Both the position numbers and the translations under genes were made by a program. A stretch of DNA of 64,000 nucleotides from Nitrospirota bacterium (lineage in GTDB: Bacteria; JACPQY01). This document shows positions 4,283 to 47,271 of this stretch, in pieces; positions within the stretch are counted from its first letter, which is position 1, and each line of letters opens with the position of its first letter. The notes beneath the pieces were generated by a model. It had not been told where the DNA came from and did not search any database. It was given only the letters and a program-made list of their open reading frames with translations. The DNA lies in NCBI GenBank assembly GCA_016190245.1, contig JACPQY010000071.1:62001-126000 (forward strand), read 5' to 3'.

Positions 4283-5020
4283 ATGATCTTGTCCCTGCCG
4301 CGCCTGGGCCTCTACACGCTGCTGATCCTTGCCTCGGTCGGCGCCGGCCTGGGGGTGTTGCGGCTCGGCGTGACCCCCCGGCTCATGCCCGGCACTCTGA
4401 GTCTGAGCGCGGGCATTTTTTTGGGGCTCACCTTCTTCTACATCGCGCCGGAGGCCTTTCAGGCAGCCGGTGGAGAGGCGGGTCTCTACTTTCTCTCCGG
4501 CTTCTTTCTGATCTACGCCTTGGAGCGATACGTGATGGTCCACCCATGCGAGGGCCCCGACTGCGAGACCCACGCGCTGGGGTACCCCGCCTTCGTGGGC
4601 CTTTCGCTCCACTCTTTCGCGGACGGCATCGCCCTGGGCACCAGCATGATGCTGCCTTCCGGGGGCCTGGGATTCGCCGTCTTCCTCGGCATCCTCGCCC
4701 ACAAGGCTCCCCAGGCCTTTTCGTTGACCACGCTCCTCCTGCGCGAACGCTTCACGTGGCCCAAGATCGTGCTGGTGAACCTCGTCCTCGTCTCCATGAT
4801 CCCCGTGGGGGCGCTGGCGGCGCATGCCCAGACTTCCCTAGGTGGCTCGCACGTGTTGATGGCCCTCCTGGCCTTCTCCGGGGGCGTCTTCCTCCACATC
4901 GCCCTCTCGGACCTGATCCCGGAGATCCACAAGGCCCAGGGGCGCCGTGCGTTCAACCTCCTGTTCGTCCTGGCCGGGATGAGCGGGATGGGGGGCCTGC
5001 GTCTCGTTGCCGGACATTGA
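4283..5020 (+). CDS. ZIP family divalent metal transporter
   Basis: A 245-residue integral membrane protein with about eight hydrophobic helices. It has the ZIP metal-site motifs in helices IV and V: LHSFADGIALG and HKAPQAFSL. It probably imports Zn2+, Fe2+ or Mn2+ across the inner membrane. The short His-rich loop of many ZIPs is replaced by a segment with two cysteines (HPCEGPDCETH) that may bind metal. The gene is divergent from the cyclase, with a 99-nt gap, and its last 14 nt overlap thiE, so the two are probably co-transcribed. Confidence 0.85.
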   Translation: MILSLPRLGLYTLLILASVGAGLGVLRLGVTPRLMPGTLSLSAGIFLGLTFFYIAPEAFQAAGGEAGLYFLSGFFLIYALERYVMVHPCEGPDCETHALGYPAFVGLSLHSFADGIALGTSMMLPSGGLGFAVFLGILAHKAPQAFSLTTLLLRERFTWPKIVLVNLVLVSMIPVGALAAHAQTSLGGSHVLMALLAFSGGVFLHIALSDLIPEIHKAQGRRAFNLLFVLAGMSGMGGLRLVAGH

Positions 5021-5672
5021 ACATCCCGCCGTCGGCGGCAACCCTCCCCTGAGGGGCTTCTATGCCATCGTTGACAACTACCCTGATCCCTCCCTGTCCC
5101 ACGAGGCGATCGCCTCGGCATTCGTGGCTGCGGGGTGCAGGATCCTCCAACTGCGGCTGAAGAACCGTCCGTCCGAAGAAGTGACCGCCGCCGCGCGCAC
5201 CCTGCGTGCGCTGATCCCTCGGGATCGCGTCTTCATCGTGAATGACTCGGTCCAAGCAGCGCTGGCGGCCGAGGCCGACGGCGTGCATCTGGGGCAGGAC
5301 GACCTCCCCGTGGAAGAGGCGAGGCGGATCCTGGGCCCGCGCCGTCTCATCGGCCTCTCCACGCACAACCTGGATCAGGTTCGGCGCGCGAACGATCGCC
5401 CGGTGGACTACATCGGATTCGGCCCGATCTTTCCCACGCGCAGCAAGCCGAATCCCGATCCGCCCACGGGTGCGGACACCCTGCGCGAAGCCGTGGCGCT
5501 CTCCGCGCATCCCATCGTCGCCCTGGGCGGCATCACGATGGAAAACCTTGAGGCGGTTCTTCAGGCCGGCCCGGCGATGGTGGCCTCGATCGCGGGCGTG
5601 GTCGGCCCCGGCCTCGATCCCGCCACCGAGGCCGCCCGCTGGGTCCATGGTATTCCGAGGACCGTATACTGA
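5007..5672 (+). CDS. thiE: Thiamine-phosphate synthase
   Basis: A 221-residue TIM-barrel protein that joins HMP pyrophosphate and thiazole phosphate to make thiamine phosphate. Typical motifs are present: YAIVD, LQLRLKN, FIVND, ADGVHLGQDDLP, GLSTHN, YIGFGPIFPT, ALGGI and AGPAMVASI. It overlaps the ZIP gene by 14 nt. Its last codons and stop lie inside the left arm of an inverted-repeat element (arm 5664-5677), so the present C-terminus RTVY is partly repeat-encoded. Confidence 0.93.
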   Translation: MPDIEHPAVGGNPPLRGFYAIVDNYPDPSLSHEAIASAFVAAGCRILQLRLKNRPSEEVTAAARTLRALIPRDRVFIVNDSVQAALAAEADGVHLGQDDLPVEEARRILGPRRLIGLSTHNLDQVRRANDRPVDYIGFGPIFPTRSKPNPDPPTGADTLREAVALSAHPIVALGGITMENLEAVLQAGPAMVASIAGVVGPGLDPATEAARWVHGIPRTVY

Positions 5673-7533: not shown

Positions 7534-8808
7534 CTAGTCCGCCTGTTTCCTCAGGAAGGTCGGGATGTCGTATTCGCTCTCGACCTCGAAGGGGAAGCTC
7601 TGGTGGACAGTCACGCCGCCGTAGCCGCTGGCCGCCCTTCCCGCGTTCGGCGCCGGTCGGGCCGGCGCAGGGGGAGCCTCCTTCTCCACCGGCTCTGTGT
7701 GCTCCCGCTCCTTGCGTCTCAGCCACGTGGGGCGCTCGTAGTTGAGCGCATCCCTGGGGCCGGCCGGCGTCGCGTGGGCGTGGGCCTCCTCTCTCCGGCT
7801 CGCGCCGAAGCCCGTGGCGATGACGGTGACGCGGATGTACCCCTTGAACTTCTTGTTCTTGTTGTACACCGCGCCCCAGATAAGGTGGGCCTGTTCCCCT
7901 GCCTGCTGGCGGATGTACTCCATGGCCGCCTTGACCTCGTTGAGCGTCATCGCGTCGGACGTGAAGTTCACAAGGATGGCCTTGGCACCCTGGATCGAGA
8001 CGTCCTCCAGAAGCGGGCTTGAGATGGCGAACTCGGCCGCCTCGCGGGCGCGGTTGTCGCCCTGGGCCTGTCCGATCCCCATCATGGCCATGCCCATCTC
8101 GTGCATGACGCTTTTCACGTCCGCGAAGTCCCGGTTGACCAGCCCCGGAAGGGTGATGATGTCCGAGATGCCCCGCACGGCGTTGATCAGCACATCGTCC
8201 GCCCGCTGAAACGCCTCTCGCAGGTCCCGGTCGCCCGCGACTGCGAGAAGCCGCTGGTTGGGGATGACGATGATCGTGTCCGTGTAGTTGCGCATCTCGG
8301 CCAAGCCCGCTTCCGCGTGCTTGAGGCGTTTGGGCCCTTCATCGTTGAACGGGCGGGTCACCACGCCGACGGTCAGGATCCCCATCTCTTTGGCAACGGA
8401 CGCGACGACAGGCGCCGCGCCCGTGCCCGTGCCGCCTCCCATGCCGGCGGTCACGAACACCATGTCCGCACCTTCCAGCACCTTGCGGATTTCCTCCCGG
8501 CTCTCCTGAGCCGCGGTGCGGCCCCGCTCCGGATCTCCGCCCGCGCCCAGGCCGCGCGTGGAGGTCGGGCCGAGCTGAATCTTCTTGTGGGCCGACGTCC
8601 GCTTCTCGAGGTGTTGCGCGTCCGTGTTGGCCGCGATCAACTCCACGCCCCGGACCCGTGAGCGGGACATGTTCTTCACGGCGTTGCAGCCGCAGCCGCC
8701 CACGCCCACCACCTTGATTCGCGCGGCGAACCCTTCCTCTTCAGCGATCTTGAACATCGCCTCCTTGGTTTCCGTGGTCTCCGCGGGCCGATCCTGTTGC
8801 TCGTCCAT
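7534..8808 (-). CDS. ftsZ: Cell division GTPase FtsZ
   Basis: 424 residues. FtsZ polymerises at mid-cell and scaffolds the divisome. Seen are the nucleotide-binding loops VGVGGCGCNAV, AANTDAQ, the tubulin signature GGGTGTGAAP, and the T7 synergy region. The C-terminal conserved peptide DIPTFLRKQAD, which binds FtsA, follows a Pro/Ala-rich linker. The ATG at 8808 is fixed by a strong AAAGGAGG upstream; the frame stays open far beyond it but without FtsZ-like sequence. It is last in the dcw cluster and separated from ftsA by 419 nt, so it may also have its own promoter. Confidence 0.97.
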   Translation of the reverse strand: MDEQQDRPAETTETKEAMFKIAEEEGFAARIKVVGVGGCGCNAVKNMSRSRVRGVELIAANTDAQHLEKRTSAHKKIQLGPTSTRGLGAGGDPERGRTAAQESREEIRKVLEGADMVFVTAGMGGGTGTGAAPVVASVAKEMGILTVGVVTRPFNDEGPKRLKHAEAGLAEMRNYTDTIIVIPNQRLLAVAGDRDLREAFQRADDVLINAVRGISDIITLPGLVNRDFADVKSVMHEMGMAMMGIGQAQGDNRAREAAEFAISSPLLEDVSIQGAKAILVNFTSDAMTLNEVKAAMEYIRQQAGEQAHLIWGAVYNKNKKFKGYIRVTVIATGFGASRREEAHAHATPAGPRDALNYERPTWLRRKEREHTEPVEKEAPPAPARPAPNAGRAASGYGGVTVHQSFPFEVESEYDIPTFLRKQAD

Positions 8809-9227
8809 TGAAGGCCTCCTTTCCCGATTGTCGGAGGGTTCGGCCCGGGCCGGTTCTTCGCCGGCCGGCGGGCCTGCTCCGCTTTCTTGGCGCATGGCGG
8901 CCGCGGTCGTGCCCGCGGCCCCTCCCGTGTTTGGCCCTCCTGGATGCAACTGAGTCGGGCCCTGCCCCAGGGCCCCTGCTGCTGATTTCTCGGATATCGC
9001 GTCCTGTGGACCGCCCACCACTGGGGGCCCGTCCACTCCCACTTCTTCCCCTTCCCCCGGCGGATGGACGCATGAGAATGCGTCCCTACATTCCTCATCG
9101 TCTGGGGCGGAATAATCTCTTTCCGCCAACGATGCCGTCACGCCCGATGATCCAAACAGATCCTGCTGCTGCGGTCCCGATCCGCCTTCCCCGCCATCCT
9201 GGCCGCGGCGGATTTCGGCCTCCTGCC
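8809..9227. other. ftsA-ftsZ intergenic region with small hairpin
   Basis: This 419-nt gap is unusual in an otherwise overlapping operon. No gene is convincing. It holds a perfect 8-bp hairpin (GGACGCAT gaga ATGCGTCC, 9066-9085) next to CTACATTCC, similar in style to the short symmetric hairpins of the 45.2-kb fold-back element. A ribosome site for ftsZ (AAAGGAGG) lies at its end. It may carry a dedicated ftsZ promoter, but no clear -35/-10 pair stands out. Confidence 0.4.
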
Positions 9228-10460
9228 TCAAAAGTAGTCGCGGATCCCCTTGTACCATTCGCGCATCCTTGCCTTGACCTTCTCGAAAATCTCCTCGTCG
9301 CGGATTCGGAACTGGTTCCTCTTGTTGGACTTGCCGCCCATCAGCACCAGACCCACACCGGTCGCGTACTTCGGGTGTTTCACCGCATCCGAAAGGCCGC
9401 CCACCCCTTGCGGGACGCCGCGGCGCGCAGGCATGTTGAAGACCTTCTCCGCCAACTCCACGCAGCCGTCGAGCAGCGCCCCCCCCCCGGTGACGGAGAT
9501 GCCGGCCGTCATCGTCTCGAGGTAGCCCGCTTTCTCCAAGTCCCGGTATGCCAACTCCAGGATCTCTTCCATCCTGAGCTCGATGATCTCGGTGAGGAAT
9601 TTGCGGCTCTCCTGACGAGACTTCCGGCCACCCACGCCGGGCACTTCGAACTGTTCGTCCTTGGTCACCATCGTGGTGAGGCCGCACCCGAACTTCTCCT
9701 TAATCTTCTCCGCCTCGTGCATCGGCGTGCGCAGGCCCACGACGATGTCGTTGGTGACGTGGTCTCCGCCGAGGCTCAGCACGCTCGTGTACTTGAGGGT
9801 CCCGTCCGAAAACACGGCCATGTCGGTCGTCCCCCCCCCGATGTCCAGCAGGCCCACGCCCATATCCTTCTCGTCCTGTGTCAGCGTCGCCTCCGAGCTG
9901 CCGAGTTGCTGAAGGATGATGTCCGCCACATCCAGCCCGGCCTTGTTCGCGCAGCGGATGATATTCTGGGCGGACGCCACGGCCGCCGTGATGATGTGAA
10001 CGCGCGATTCGAGGCGGACGCCGGACATCCCGACCGGGTCTTTGATCCCGCCTTGCCCATCCAGGATGAACTCCTGCGGGAGGATGTGGATGACCTCCTG
10101 ATCCATCGGGATGGCCACGGCCTTAGCGGCCTCGATGACCCGCTCCACGTCCTGCGGTTTGACCTCGCGGTCCTTGATGGCGATCACACCCGTGGAGTTG
10201 AAACTGCGGATGTGTCCGCCGGCAATCCCGATATACACCGTGTTGATTTCGCAGCCCGCCATGAACTCGGCCTCGGCCACGGCCTTCTTGATGGACTCAA
10301 CGGTGCTGTCGATGTTCACCACCACGCCTCTGCGGAGTCCGCGCGAGGGGTGGTCACCCACGCCGATCACGTCCGTGCCCGTCTCGGCGGCCTCGCCCAC
10401 CACCACGCAGATCTTGGTGGTGCCGATGTCCAGGCCGACGACGATTTCGCCTTGAGGCAC
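9228..10460 (-). CDS. ftsA: Cell division protein FtsA
   Basis: 410 residues with an actin-type ATPase fold. FtsA tethers FtsZ to the membrane and recruits later divisome proteins. Motifs: GLDIGTTKICVVVGE (phosphate 1), LLDIGGGTTDMAVF (phosphate 2), SVTGGGALLDG (adenosine). The 1C insertion is typical of FtsA rather than MreB. The end, KVKARMREWYKGIRDYF, is an amphipathic membrane-targeting helix. It starts 2 nt after ftsQ. Confidence 0.96.
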   Translation of the reverse strand: MPQGEIVVGLDIGTTKICVVVGEAAETGTDVIGVGDHPSRGLRRGVVVNIDSTVESIKKAVAEAEFMAGCEINTVYIGIAGGHIRSFNSTGVIAIKDREVKPQDVERVIEAAKAVAIPMDQEVIHILPQEFILDGQGGIKDPVGMSGVRLESRVHIITAAVASAQNIIRCANKAGLDVADIILQQLGSSEATLTQDEKDMGVGLLDIGGGTTDMAVFSDGTLKYTSVLSLGGDHVTNDIVVGLRTPMHEAEKIKEKFGCGLTTMVTKDEQFEVPGVGGRKSRQESRKFLTEIIELRMEEILELAYRDLEKAGYLETMTAGISVTGGGALLDGCVELAEKVFNMPARRGVPQGVGGLSDAVKHPKYATGVGLVLMGGKSNKRNQFRIRDEEIFEKVKARMREWYKGIRDYF

Positions 10461-43955: not shown

Positions 43956-45214
43956 CCCCCCGGCCCCTCCCCCCCCCCCGGCGCGTCGTCGCCACCGGGC
44001 TGGGGGTCATCTCCCCCCTCGGGATCGGCGTCGAGAAGAACTGGAACGCCCTGATGGCCGGCGCCTCCGGCATCGGCCCCATCACCCACTTCGATACCGC
44101 CAAGTTCGACGCGCGGATCGCGGGCGAGGTGCGCGATTTCTCCCCGGAGAACTACATGGAGAAGAAGGAGACGCGCCGCATGGAGCGCTTCGCACATTTC
44201 GCCGTCGCCTCGGCCCGGATAGCCTTGGAGGACGGCGCCTACACCATCCCGCCGGAGGAGGCCGCCCGTGTGGGCGTGGTGATCGGCGTCGGGATGGGCG
44301 GACTGCCGGCCATCGAGCGGACGCGCGATACGCTCGTGCAGCAAGGGCCTTCCCGCGTCACGCCCTTCTTCATCCCCCTCGTCATTCCGAACATGGCCGC
44401 GGGTCACGTCTCCATCCAGTTCGGGGCGAAGGGCCCCAACTTGTGCACGACTACGGCCTGCGCGGCCGGGGCCCATGCCATCGGCGAGGCCTCGCGCCTC
44501 ATCCAACAGGACCACGTGGACGTCATTCTCGCGGGCGGCGCCGAAGCGACGGTGAGCCCCCTGGCCGTGGCGGGCTTCGACTCAATGAAGGCCCTCAGCC
44601 GCCGGAACGGCGAGCCGCAGAAAGCCAGCCGCCCGTTCGAACGCGACCGCGACGGTTTCGTTCTCGCCGAAGGCGGGGCGGTCCTTCTCCTCGAAGAACT
44701 GGAGCATGCCCGGAGGCGCGGGGCGAGGATCTACGCCGAGCTCATCGGCTATGGCCTCAATGGGGACGCGCATCACATCACGACGCCTGCGCCCAACGGC
44801 GAGGGCGCGGCGCGATGCATGCGCCTCACGCTGGACGATGCCGGGATCGCGCCGGTGCAGGTGGACTACATCAACGCCCACGGCACTTCGACAAAGTACA
44901 ACGATGCGAACGAGACGGCGGCGATCAAGACGGTCTTCGGACCGCACGCATCATCCGTCGCGATCAGCTCCACCAAATCCATGACCGGCCATCTCTTGGG
45001 CGCCGCCGGGGCGGTGGAGGCCGTCTACTCCATCCTCACGATTGTGAGGGGCACGATCCCGCCCACGGTGAACTACGAGAACCCCGACCCCGAGTGCGAT
45101 CTGGACTACGTCCCCAACACCCCACGGCAGAAGGATGTTCGCTGCGTGCTCTCCAACTCCTTCGGCTTCGGCGGCACCAACGCGTGCCTGCTCTTCAAGG
45201 CCTTCGAGGACTGA
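43952..45214 (+). CDS. fabF: 3-oxoacyl-ACP synthase II, likely ATA start
   Basis: It elongates acyl-ACP. Catalytic Cys in [14 protein letters not shown] and two His in [12 protein letters not shown] and [16 protein letters not shown]; the end is [14 protein letters not shown]. The conserved N-terminus [17 protein letters not shown] is encoded from 43979, but no ATG, GTG or TTG precedes it in frame. The first ATG (44054) would delete the first strand and helix. An in-frame ATA at 43952 overlaps the acpP stop (ATAG) and has AAGGAG 11 bases upstream, giving [13 protein letters not shown]. An 11-C run at 43969-43979 also leaves room for an assembly error. Confidence 0.92.
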
Positions 45215-45217
45215 GAA

Positions 45218-45316
45218 CCTATCCGAAAACCCCCGCACTCGTAGGGGAGCATCTTCAGATGCTCCCTCCTCATGGGCGGGTCTGAAGACCCGCCCCTACA
45301 GGGGCTCTCGGATAGG
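45218..45316. repeat. Fold-back element with two symmetric hairpins
   Basis: The outer arms CCTATCCGA (45218-45226) and TCGGATAGG (45308-45316) enclose two perfect hairpins: GGGAGCATCT tc AGATGCTCCC (45245-45266) and GGGCGGGTCT ga AGACCCGCCC (45274-45295). It starts 3 nt after the fabF stop and could act as its terminator. Its form is that of a MITE-like dispersed element. Confidence 0.7.
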
Positions 45317-45393
45317 CTGTAAGAGCGGCGAACCTCGGGCTGCTCCGCGCCGACGTTGCCAAGCCGGCTCGCGGGCGATAGAATACAGCAGGG

Positions 45394-46203
45394 ATGAGCA
45401 AACCGATTCTGAGGGTGCGGATCACGACGATGCGGAGCAAGACTGCGGCTCTTCCGGCCCTTTTTGACACCGGATCTTTCTTCTCCATCATCCGGGAAAA
45501 CCAGCTGCCCACAGGAACGCCCATCCTGCCGTATCCTGAGCGCCGGGCGTTGCGCACGGCGGGCCGACGGGGACAACTCAGGGTGACCGGGGTCACCGAA
45601 CTTGTCGTTGACATCGGGAGAAGACGAGTGCAGACGTCGGTGCTGGTCTCCCCCGATCTCGGGCGCGAGTTCCTGATCGGAGCGGGAACGATGCAGATGT
45701 GGGACATCTCGGTACGCAACCGAAACGGGTCCACCAAGGTCGTCGTCGGCCGCGACGTTCGGAATCCCGAGATCACCGAGGTCGCGGCACTCCAAGAGGG
45801 TCAGCATGGGACCCCGAGTGATCCGACGCCTTCGCAGACCTCCGCTCCGGCCCCGATCCGCCCGCTCCTTTCGGTCACCGAGAAGGCCGCCCGGAGAATC
45901 CTCGACCTGTGCAAGCGGCAGGCGCCAACCGATGGGGCCAACGCCTACGGCATACGCCTCAAGGTGATCGGCGGCGGCTGCAACGGGATGCAGTACAAGA
46001 TGAACCCCGACACTCAGGCGCGGCCCGGCGACCGCGTGTTCGACGCCCCGCTCGGGCTCAAAGTCTTCGTGGATCTCAAGAGCCTGATCTACCTCAAGGG
46101 AACCGAGATCGACCTGAATGCCAACCCGCTCGCCGGAACCTTCGAGTTCAAGAACCCCAACGTCAAGAGCACCTGCGGCTGCGGCCTCTCCTTCTCGACC
46201 TGA
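45394..46203 (+). CDS. Retropepsin-like aspartic protease fused to IscA/ErpA-type Fe-S carrier
   Basis: 269 residues. Residues ~5-115 are a clan AA aspartic protease domain: the active site is ALFDTGSFFSII (DTG at 25-27), then strands LVVDIGRRRVQTSVLVS and REFLIGAGTMQMWDIS. A Pro/Thr/Ser linker (~131-158) leads to an A-type carrier domain (~159-269) with all three cluster cysteines: GGGCNGMQY (C196) and STCGCG (C261, C263). The linker has no in-frame start codon, so one polypeptide is made. A-type carriers hand Fe-S clusters to target enzymes. A protease domain attached to one is new to me; it might process a partner or bind iron-sulfur-damaged protein. Confidence 0.85.
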   Translation: MSKPILRVRITTMRSKTAALPALFDTGSFFSIIRENQLPTGTPILPYPERRALRTAGRRGQLRVTGVTELVVDIGRRRVQTSVLVSPDLGREFLIGAGTMQMWDISVRNRNGSTKVVVGRDVRNPEITEVAALQEGQHGTPSDPTPSQTSAPAPIRPLLSVTEKAARRILDLCKRQAPTDGANAYGIRLKVIGGGCNGMQYKMNPDTQARPGDRVFDAPLGLKVFVDLKSLIYLKGTEIDLNANPLAGTFEFKNPNVKSTCGCGLSFST

Positions 46204-46224: not shown

Positions 46225-47271
46225 ATGAAACCGGCTTCGGGCGCGGGGAGGACCCTCCACTGCACCGTCTTCCCGCCTTCATCTGCCGCCACCCTCCTGA
46301 ATCGCGAAACGCGCCTGCTCCGTGCCCTCGATGAGGGCTCCGTCGAGCGCGCCGCGTGGTGCCTCTTTTCGACTTTCGACTCTGAATCCATCGCCCTGGG
46401 ACGCTACGAGCATCCTGCCTCTGCTATAAAGACCGATCTCTGTCGCGAGCGAGAGGTACCGGTGGTCCGCCGCCCCACCGGCGGAATCCCCGTTCGGTTC
46501 GGTCCAGGCACGCTGCACGTGGCCCTTCTCCTACCCCACGCCTCCGTCTGGCTCGACACTCCCCCGCCCAAGATTCTCAACCGATATTCCCGCGGCCTCC
46601 TCGCCGCGCTTCAGGGGCTCGGCTTGGACGCCGCCTACACCGGCCGGGAGTTCCTTTCCGCGAACGGCTCGCACGTGGGCTACCTCTCGTTCGAGATCGC
46701 ACAGGGCGGCGCCGTGCTGGTGGAAATCGTGCTCGGCCTCGAAGCCCCCTGGACCGTGGCTGACGATCTCATCGCCCACCCCGCCCCCGCGGGCTTCGCG
46801 ACCGGCGGCAAACCCAGCCGGTCCCTCCAAGATCTTCTCAGCCGCACCGTCACGACCGAGGAAATGATCCAACACGTCCTGGACGGCCTCCGGCGCCGCT
46901 ACGGAATCGAGCCGTCGCCAGCCGACCCTCTCCCCCTGCTTTCACCAAGCCGGAACGAAACCCCGATCGAGGACGAGCCCCTCGACGGCTTCCGCCATGC
47001 CCGCCTCCCCGTCAGCATCGGCTTCGTCGAAGCCTTCGTCGAGCTTCGTGAGCGGACCCTCACGCGCGCACACTTTCGGGGGGACTTCCTCGCGGACTCG
47101 CCGGGCATCGGTGAGCTCGAAGCTCGTCTCGCGGGCGCACCCTGCACCGCCGAAACGATCGAAGCCTCCATGCGCTCCGTGTACGATGGCGCGCGTCACG
47201 TCCTCCTCGGCGCCCGCCCCGACGACCTCGCTCGCGTCCTCGGCGCCGCGACCGGGGCTATGCCATCTTGA
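46225..47271 (+). CDS. Lipoate--protein ligase A-like protein, atypical active site
   Basis: 348 residues. The N-terminal ~230 follow the BPL/LplA fold: FSTFDSESIALGRYEHP, VPVVRRPTGGIPVRFGPG, TLHVALLLP. In LplA the RRxSGGGAVYHD loop is followed by a catalytic Lys in GxKIxGSA; here that place reads SANGSHVGYLSFEIAQGG, with no Lys. A C-terminal domain (~235-348) includes SIGFVEAFVELRERTLTRAHFRGDFLAD, like the LplA accessory domain. It lies 21 nt after the protease-IscA fusion, probably in one operon. Activity is uncertain; it may bind or transfer lipoate or octanoate differently or be inactive. Confidence 0.7.
   Translation: MKPASGAGRTLHCTVFPPSSAATLLNRETRLLRALDEGSVERAAWCLFSTFDSESIALGRYEHPASAIKTDLCREREVPVVRRPTGGIPVRFGPGTLHVALLLPHASVWLDTPPPKILNRYSRGLLAALQGLGLDAAYTGREFLSANGSHVGYLSFEIAQGGAVLVEIVLGLEAPWTVADDLIAHPAPAGFATGGKPSRSLQDLLSRTVTTEEMIQHVLDGLRRRYGIEPSPADPLPLLSPSRNETPIEDEPLDGFRHARLPVSIGFVEAFVELRERTLTRAHFRGDFLADSPGIGELEARLAGAPCTAETIEASMRSVYDGARHVLLGARPDDLARVLGAATGAMPS

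Follow-up and report, generated by a model that had tools for sequence, protein, structure and literature searches.

A retropepsin-like protease and an A-type iron-sulfur carrier encoded in one open reading frame of a Nitrospirota assembly

We report an open reading frame (ORF) from a Nitrospirota genome in which two intact domains, a small retropepsin-like aspartic protease and an A-type iron-sulfur (Fe-S) carrier, are encoded in a single frame. At the level of the assembled sequence this fused ORF is real. It lies in a 64,000-nucleotide stretch of DNA that was analysed as a whole and is referred to here as the window (Table 1). Our preferred interpretation, to which we give a probability of roughly 0.6, is that a member of a dispersed protease family has been joined to a resident carrier and that the product is a tethered two-domain protein. 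Only one assembly shows the fusion, which is probably a local, lineage-specific event that happened once, not a conserved system. The more interesting part is the protease subfamily, which is expanded in the phylum, represented here by two genomes, and is scattered through MAGs of other phyla.

An earlier note, made from the sequence alone, had described the protease and the A-type carrier as lying in one frame, and on this point Pfam, TIGR00049 and codon usage agree. The Pfam family RVP matches residues 2-105 (25.5 bits, cut-off 20.7) and Fe-S_biosyn matches residues 159-264 (54.1 bits, cut-off 26.3), while the fused protein scores 93.1 bits against a cut-off of 58.8 for TIGR00049 (NCBIfam). 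The frame opening at 45394 has the best codon usage in all 25-codon windows from that position on; with 15-codon windows it ranks second at 45394 and 45784, and the linker scores close to neutral. A frame plot covering the entire stretch left 310 plot windows unassigned and was too noisy for use. Strong relatives of each half occur in other genomes, so the reading frame is more than a chance one. The linker between them was said to contain no internal start, and reading by eye bears this out: no in-frame ATG, GTG or TTG lies between protease and carrier, the first in-frame start codon past the junction being a GTG inside the carrier domain (45964). Compared with the defence systems in PADLOC, the fused protein gave no match.

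Table 1. Features of the fused gene and its surroundings (window positions)
Feature	Position	Strand	Basis or remark
fabF, last gene of the fab block	44054..45214	+	Pfam ketoacyl-synt; same order in sister genome
Dispersed repeat between fabF and the fused gene	45207..45320	+	25 matches in own genome, the window's included
Promoter-like TTGCCA-17-TAGAAT, 9 nt before start codon	45356..45384	+	Same layout before 12/13 family genes checked
Fused ORF, 269 aa + stop	45394..46203	+	Open frame, Pfam, codon usage
Retropepsin domain, residues 1-130, conserved family tail to ..NPEITEV	45394..45783	+	Pfam RVP, alignment, fold model
D25-T-G active-site codons	45466..45474	+	D25 and G27 invariant in 15/15 rows
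Linker, residues 131-158, Pro/Ala/Thr/Ser/Gln-rich; site of the family's usual stop codon	45784..45867	+	
AAGAGGG then ATG (45806), out of frame; may be what is left of an independent carrier start	45794..45808	+	
A-type Fe-S carrier domain, residues 159-269; Cys 196, 261, 263	45868..46200	+	Pfam, NCBIfam
Lipoate-protein ligase-like gene directly downstream	46225..47271	+	Pfam LplA-B_cat

The motifs singled out in the earlier note, D-T-G in the protease and three cysteines in the carrier, are present and conserved. A 15-row alignment of the protease leaves M1, K3, P4, D25, G27, R34, P39, G96, M100, Q101, W103, N111, G112, D121, P125 and V130 invariant, and the cysteines are likewise invariant in all 15 rows of a carrier alignment that comprises the fused protein and 14 carriers from other genomes. 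A model of residues 1-139 built from 17 sequences (mean pLDDT 85.2, pTM 0.77; residues 128-139 under 50) depicts the monomer as a beta-rich single lobe, and the protease half is accordingly predicted to adopt the single-lobe retropepsin fold. The best 50 rows of a Foldseek search with this model are all retroviral and DDI1 proteases (best E 4.8e-6), human DDI1 superposing with Z 13.9 and rmsd 2.2 over 108 residues. Designed armadillo repeat proteins headed a PDB search with the protease alignment; they have no matched stretch of their own and were set aside as spurious, and the DDI1 row of the same search (E 1.1e-4) was relied on instead.

With DDI1 and the retroviral proteases of clan AA the window's protease thus shares its fold and D-T-G motif, although identity is 12-24% in the rows listed, the protein is bacterial and its partner is an Fe-S carrier. 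DDI1, like the fused protein, is a multidomain protein (PMC6120238). Retropepsins act as homodimers whose Asp dyad sits at the interface, and the DTG motif of RloA proteins, which are dimers, likewise lies there (both from PMC12239564). RimB, RloA and APRc resemble the protease half in being small, bacterial, single-domain retropepsins; their descriptions, in the portions available, set them apart as other proteins and mention no carrier domain. The NCBIfam model TIGR03698 (clan_AA_DTGF) is weakly similar over the second half of the domain, but at 14.8 bits, against a cut-off of 57.35, the protease is not a member.

The carrier half is a whole A-type domain of the group that includes IscA, SufA and ErpA, with a score above the cut-off of the general model. 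It differs from those three proteins proper in its N-terminal protease domain and in falling below their equivalog cut-offs (77 of 150.6 bits for IscA, 81.1 of 136.2 for SufA and 71.5 of 117 for ErpA). The nearest solved relatives are Aquifex aeolicus AQ_1857 and Escherichia coli IscA. The closest carrier overall, 61% identical over residues 141-268, is encoded on contig C12 of a sister genome (G001), the only other genome of the phylum examined.

Members of the retropepsin family are proteins of about 131 residues. Besides the fused gene, the window's genome contains three intact copies (on contigs C10, C6 and C62) and a C-terminal fragment on C83; the sister genome contains ten, one with an internal deletion. 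Identity between the fused copy and the full-length ones in these two genomes is only 46-57%. Three distant retropepsin relatives are also found on contig C79 of the window's genome, two of them close together on the same strand (C79:78847-79776) and the third at C79:47714. Further afield, a profile search of 386 genomes located relatives in six at E 1e-8, and a scan of genome contigs recovered 17 loci in MAGs, a sample that leans to tail-bearing members, one of the two patterns of the scan being the conserved tail. Titles for 9 of these 17 loci name groundwater, and the MAG labels are Verrucomicrobia, Elusimicrobia, Lindowbacteria, Deltaproteobacteria, Hydrogenedentota, Bacteroidetes/Bacteroidia and Planctomycetota. 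Searched alone, the protease half had no match in plasmid or phage records, and none of its 23 pattern matches in viral contigs is a relative; no evidence was found that a mobile element has spread the family. One degenerate copy (G312:C43), in which D-P-A replaces D-T-G, is probably not catalytic.

No constant partner of the family emerged among ten neighbour proteins scanned. In Bacteroidetes MAGs, a DUF5618 gene with weak, sub-threshold HEPN similarity follows the retropepsin by 5 nt at one locus (L070:3998-4782), a Uma2 gene lies near it at another (L063:865-2122), and elsewhere a DUF5678-aspartyl-protease gene is next to it or near. Outside the Bacteroidetes MAGs the neighbours include NHL/fn3 or beta-helix proteins and an IS110 transposase.

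Of 13 family genes that were checked across the two genomes, 12, among them the fused one, have a TAnnnT box 6-9 nt upstream of the start codon and a -35-like hexamer 16-17 nt above the box. The box was found at 30 of 2000 random points in the window, a control that overstates the contrast since the window is GC-rich and the points were unmatched for intergenic sites. Its closeness to the start codon suggests leaderless transcripts.

The C-terminal ends of the family define where the fused gene departs from it. We compared 30 distinct places: ten in the sister genome, four in the window's genome (the window included), two in G030 (copies recovered twice, as L060 and L068, and counted once), 13 further loci and G312:C43. 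Locus L071 was included despite its missing N-terminal part, while the distant L072 and L073 and the C83 fragment were left out. In 28 of the 30 the protein stops within five residues of the conserved tail; all 13 stand-alone copies in the two genomes stop one residue past ..EV. Two more members, G391:C24 and G387:C253, whose ends were left unread, have open frames of 135 and 133 codons, too short for a second domain. The two places that run on are the window and L067, from a Bacteroidetes groundwater MAG. There the frame (L067:4001-4810) continues at the same residue, after ..EITEV. L067 belongs to the same retropepsin family and has the same tail; unlike the window's protein, its C-terminal part is not a carrier, those 139 residues matching no NCBIfam family at E 0.1 and only the Pfam family CpXC below threshold (12.9 against 25.4). 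The gene after the L067 fusion (4845-5450) encodes DUF5678 and another aspartyl protease. Among 295 genomes of the class of L067, itself included, three had a match, and only the place in L067 covers the whole fused protein.

The protease-carrier combination itself was seen nowhere else. Of 60 genomes compared, the window's own among them, 23 gave some match, and the locus of the fused gene alone spans both halves without a stop; the phylum contributed two genomes in all. None of the 192 plasmid records with a match covers 80% of the fused protein, and a genome-contig scan with the whole protein returned 83 pattern matches, none a relative, which is weak evidence of absence. Among the papers listed by literature searches, none describes this fusion.

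The sister genome shows the two halves apart. Its carrier gene comes after a block of genes that matches the one in the window, the eight ORFs compared being 51-91% identical (fabF was named by Pfam; the other fab genes and a NuoB-like gene were named by eye), and is separate from any protease. A NuoB-like gene sits there between fabF and the carrier. In the window's genome the NuoB-like gene is found elsewhere, on C83 (57%), so the protease holds the place that another gene takes in the sister. The earlier note had offered relatives with separate halves as the mark of a sequencing error that joined two genes. Such a relative now exists, and it follows that the fusion is not conserved; as proof of a sequencing error, however, the separation does not serve, and two genomes cannot tell whether the fused or the separate state is the older. 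A misjoined contig is not favoured, since in the sister, too, the genes that flank the protease lie close together, with one gene between them.

Among the rival explanations, the one that survives best, though we consider it unlikely, is that an error of base length in the assembly has fused two genes that in truth are adjacent and overlapping, a protease gene that stops soon past the junction and a carrier gene that opens with the ATG near 45806. Its main attraction is the AAGAGGG element followed by that out-of-frame ATG. In the window genes examined, which offer 31038 positions and 223 out-of-frame ATGs, similar ribosome-site-like sequences precede 21 of those ATGs (the 45806 site itself being counted among the 21), and for a site of the AAGAGGG type with an ATG about 0.04 would be expected by chance in the 84-nt linker. 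The linker is, moreover, the only stretch of the fused ORF whose coding frame is unclear by codon usage, and the sister carrier begins with a Pro-rich extension of similar length, its start having been chosen by eye. It looks as if the carrier may once have had, or may still have, a start of its own in the linker; an old start there would mean that the fusion was made by a change of frame, in nature or in assembly. The frame of the 45806 ATG closes after 53 codons, inside the carrier. Against a length error, the linker DNA has no similarity to the 5' region of the sister's carrier gene (259 of 500 shuffles align as well), and for this reason the element stays a hint of an old carrier start. 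Furthermore, stand-alone copies in the two genomes end in, for example, GTC GAC TGA or GTG GCG TGA, and the fused gene reads GTC GCG GCA at the same place and continues, more than one base from either ending, a change that a length error alone does not explain.

The wider sequence speaks on both sides of this question. Next door, fabF lacks an in-frame ATG, GTG or TTG ahead of 44054, yet it already resembles the sister FabF from 43985 on, past an 11-C run at its 5' end (window 43956-44053), an anomaly that hints at base-level trouble in the sequence. On the other hand, a scan of 20 other window ORFs gave family matches for 18, and in no case was one family divided over two adjacent frames; 18 of the 20 are among the 46 ORFs of the codon-usage analysis, and ten were picked mainly for overlapping neighbours. 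Some of the matches are partial, such as Zip 176-322 of 323 and Mur_ligase 2-50 of 95. Elsewhere in the window (7534-9687), the FtsZ open frame has about 320 codons ahead of its FtsZ domain and shares sequence with the ftsA ORF; its start is probably placed too far upstream.

We think it improbable that the retropepsin releases the carrier by cutting the linker, in the manner of a retroviral polyprotein and perhaps on a signal, although the retropepsin fold, the intact D-T-G, the attachment at the protease C-terminus and the continuation of L067 at the same residue into an unrelated domain would all suit such processing in cis. The linker has no evident cleavage site, the family is otherwise stand-alone, and two fusions with unrelated partners demonstrate no processing. 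Cleavage between the domains is no more than possible; the earlier proposal of regulated cleavage linked to Fe-S delivery or sensing was drawn from adjacency alone. An equally improbable account makes the fusion recent and neutral, with the protease a passenger that is kept only because a second carrier covers the need. The window's genome does encode a second, ordinary carrier on C7, 42% identical, and the fusion's occurrence in a single genome fits this account. Yet the carrier is as close to its sister counterpart as the neighbouring fab genes are to theirs, and key residues are kept in both halves, so the gene does not have the look of decay. Least probable of all, in our estimate, is a bacterial polyprotein in the full sense, with a new retropepsin subfamily that, as a one-gene unit with a promoter at its start, repeatedly captures downstream genes by loss of its stop codon and matures the product in cis, the carrier being freed only by its HIV-like protease.

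In the interpretation that we prefer, a protease member joined to a resident carrier, a small single-gene retropepsin with the promoter-like box before its start would have landed between the fab operon and the resident carrier gene, lost its stop codon and become joined in frame to the carrier. The product would be a tethered two-domain protein, possibly transcribed from the box. Its protease part could pair to build the Asp dyad, given an N-terminus left free by fusion at the C-terminus only, and its carrier part, held on a flexible linker, may keep to its ordinary work of carrying clusters. By this account the fused state would be the derived one.

Should the joined frame prove to be an error, the case is an ordinary one. 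If the fusion is expressed, a cluster carrier has newly acquired a protease domain; because the sister genome retains the unfused state, what the fusion does can be put to a direct test. In addition, the analysis brings to light a small retropepsin subfamily with 4 and 10 copies in the two genomes of this phylum and single, scattered members elsewhere.
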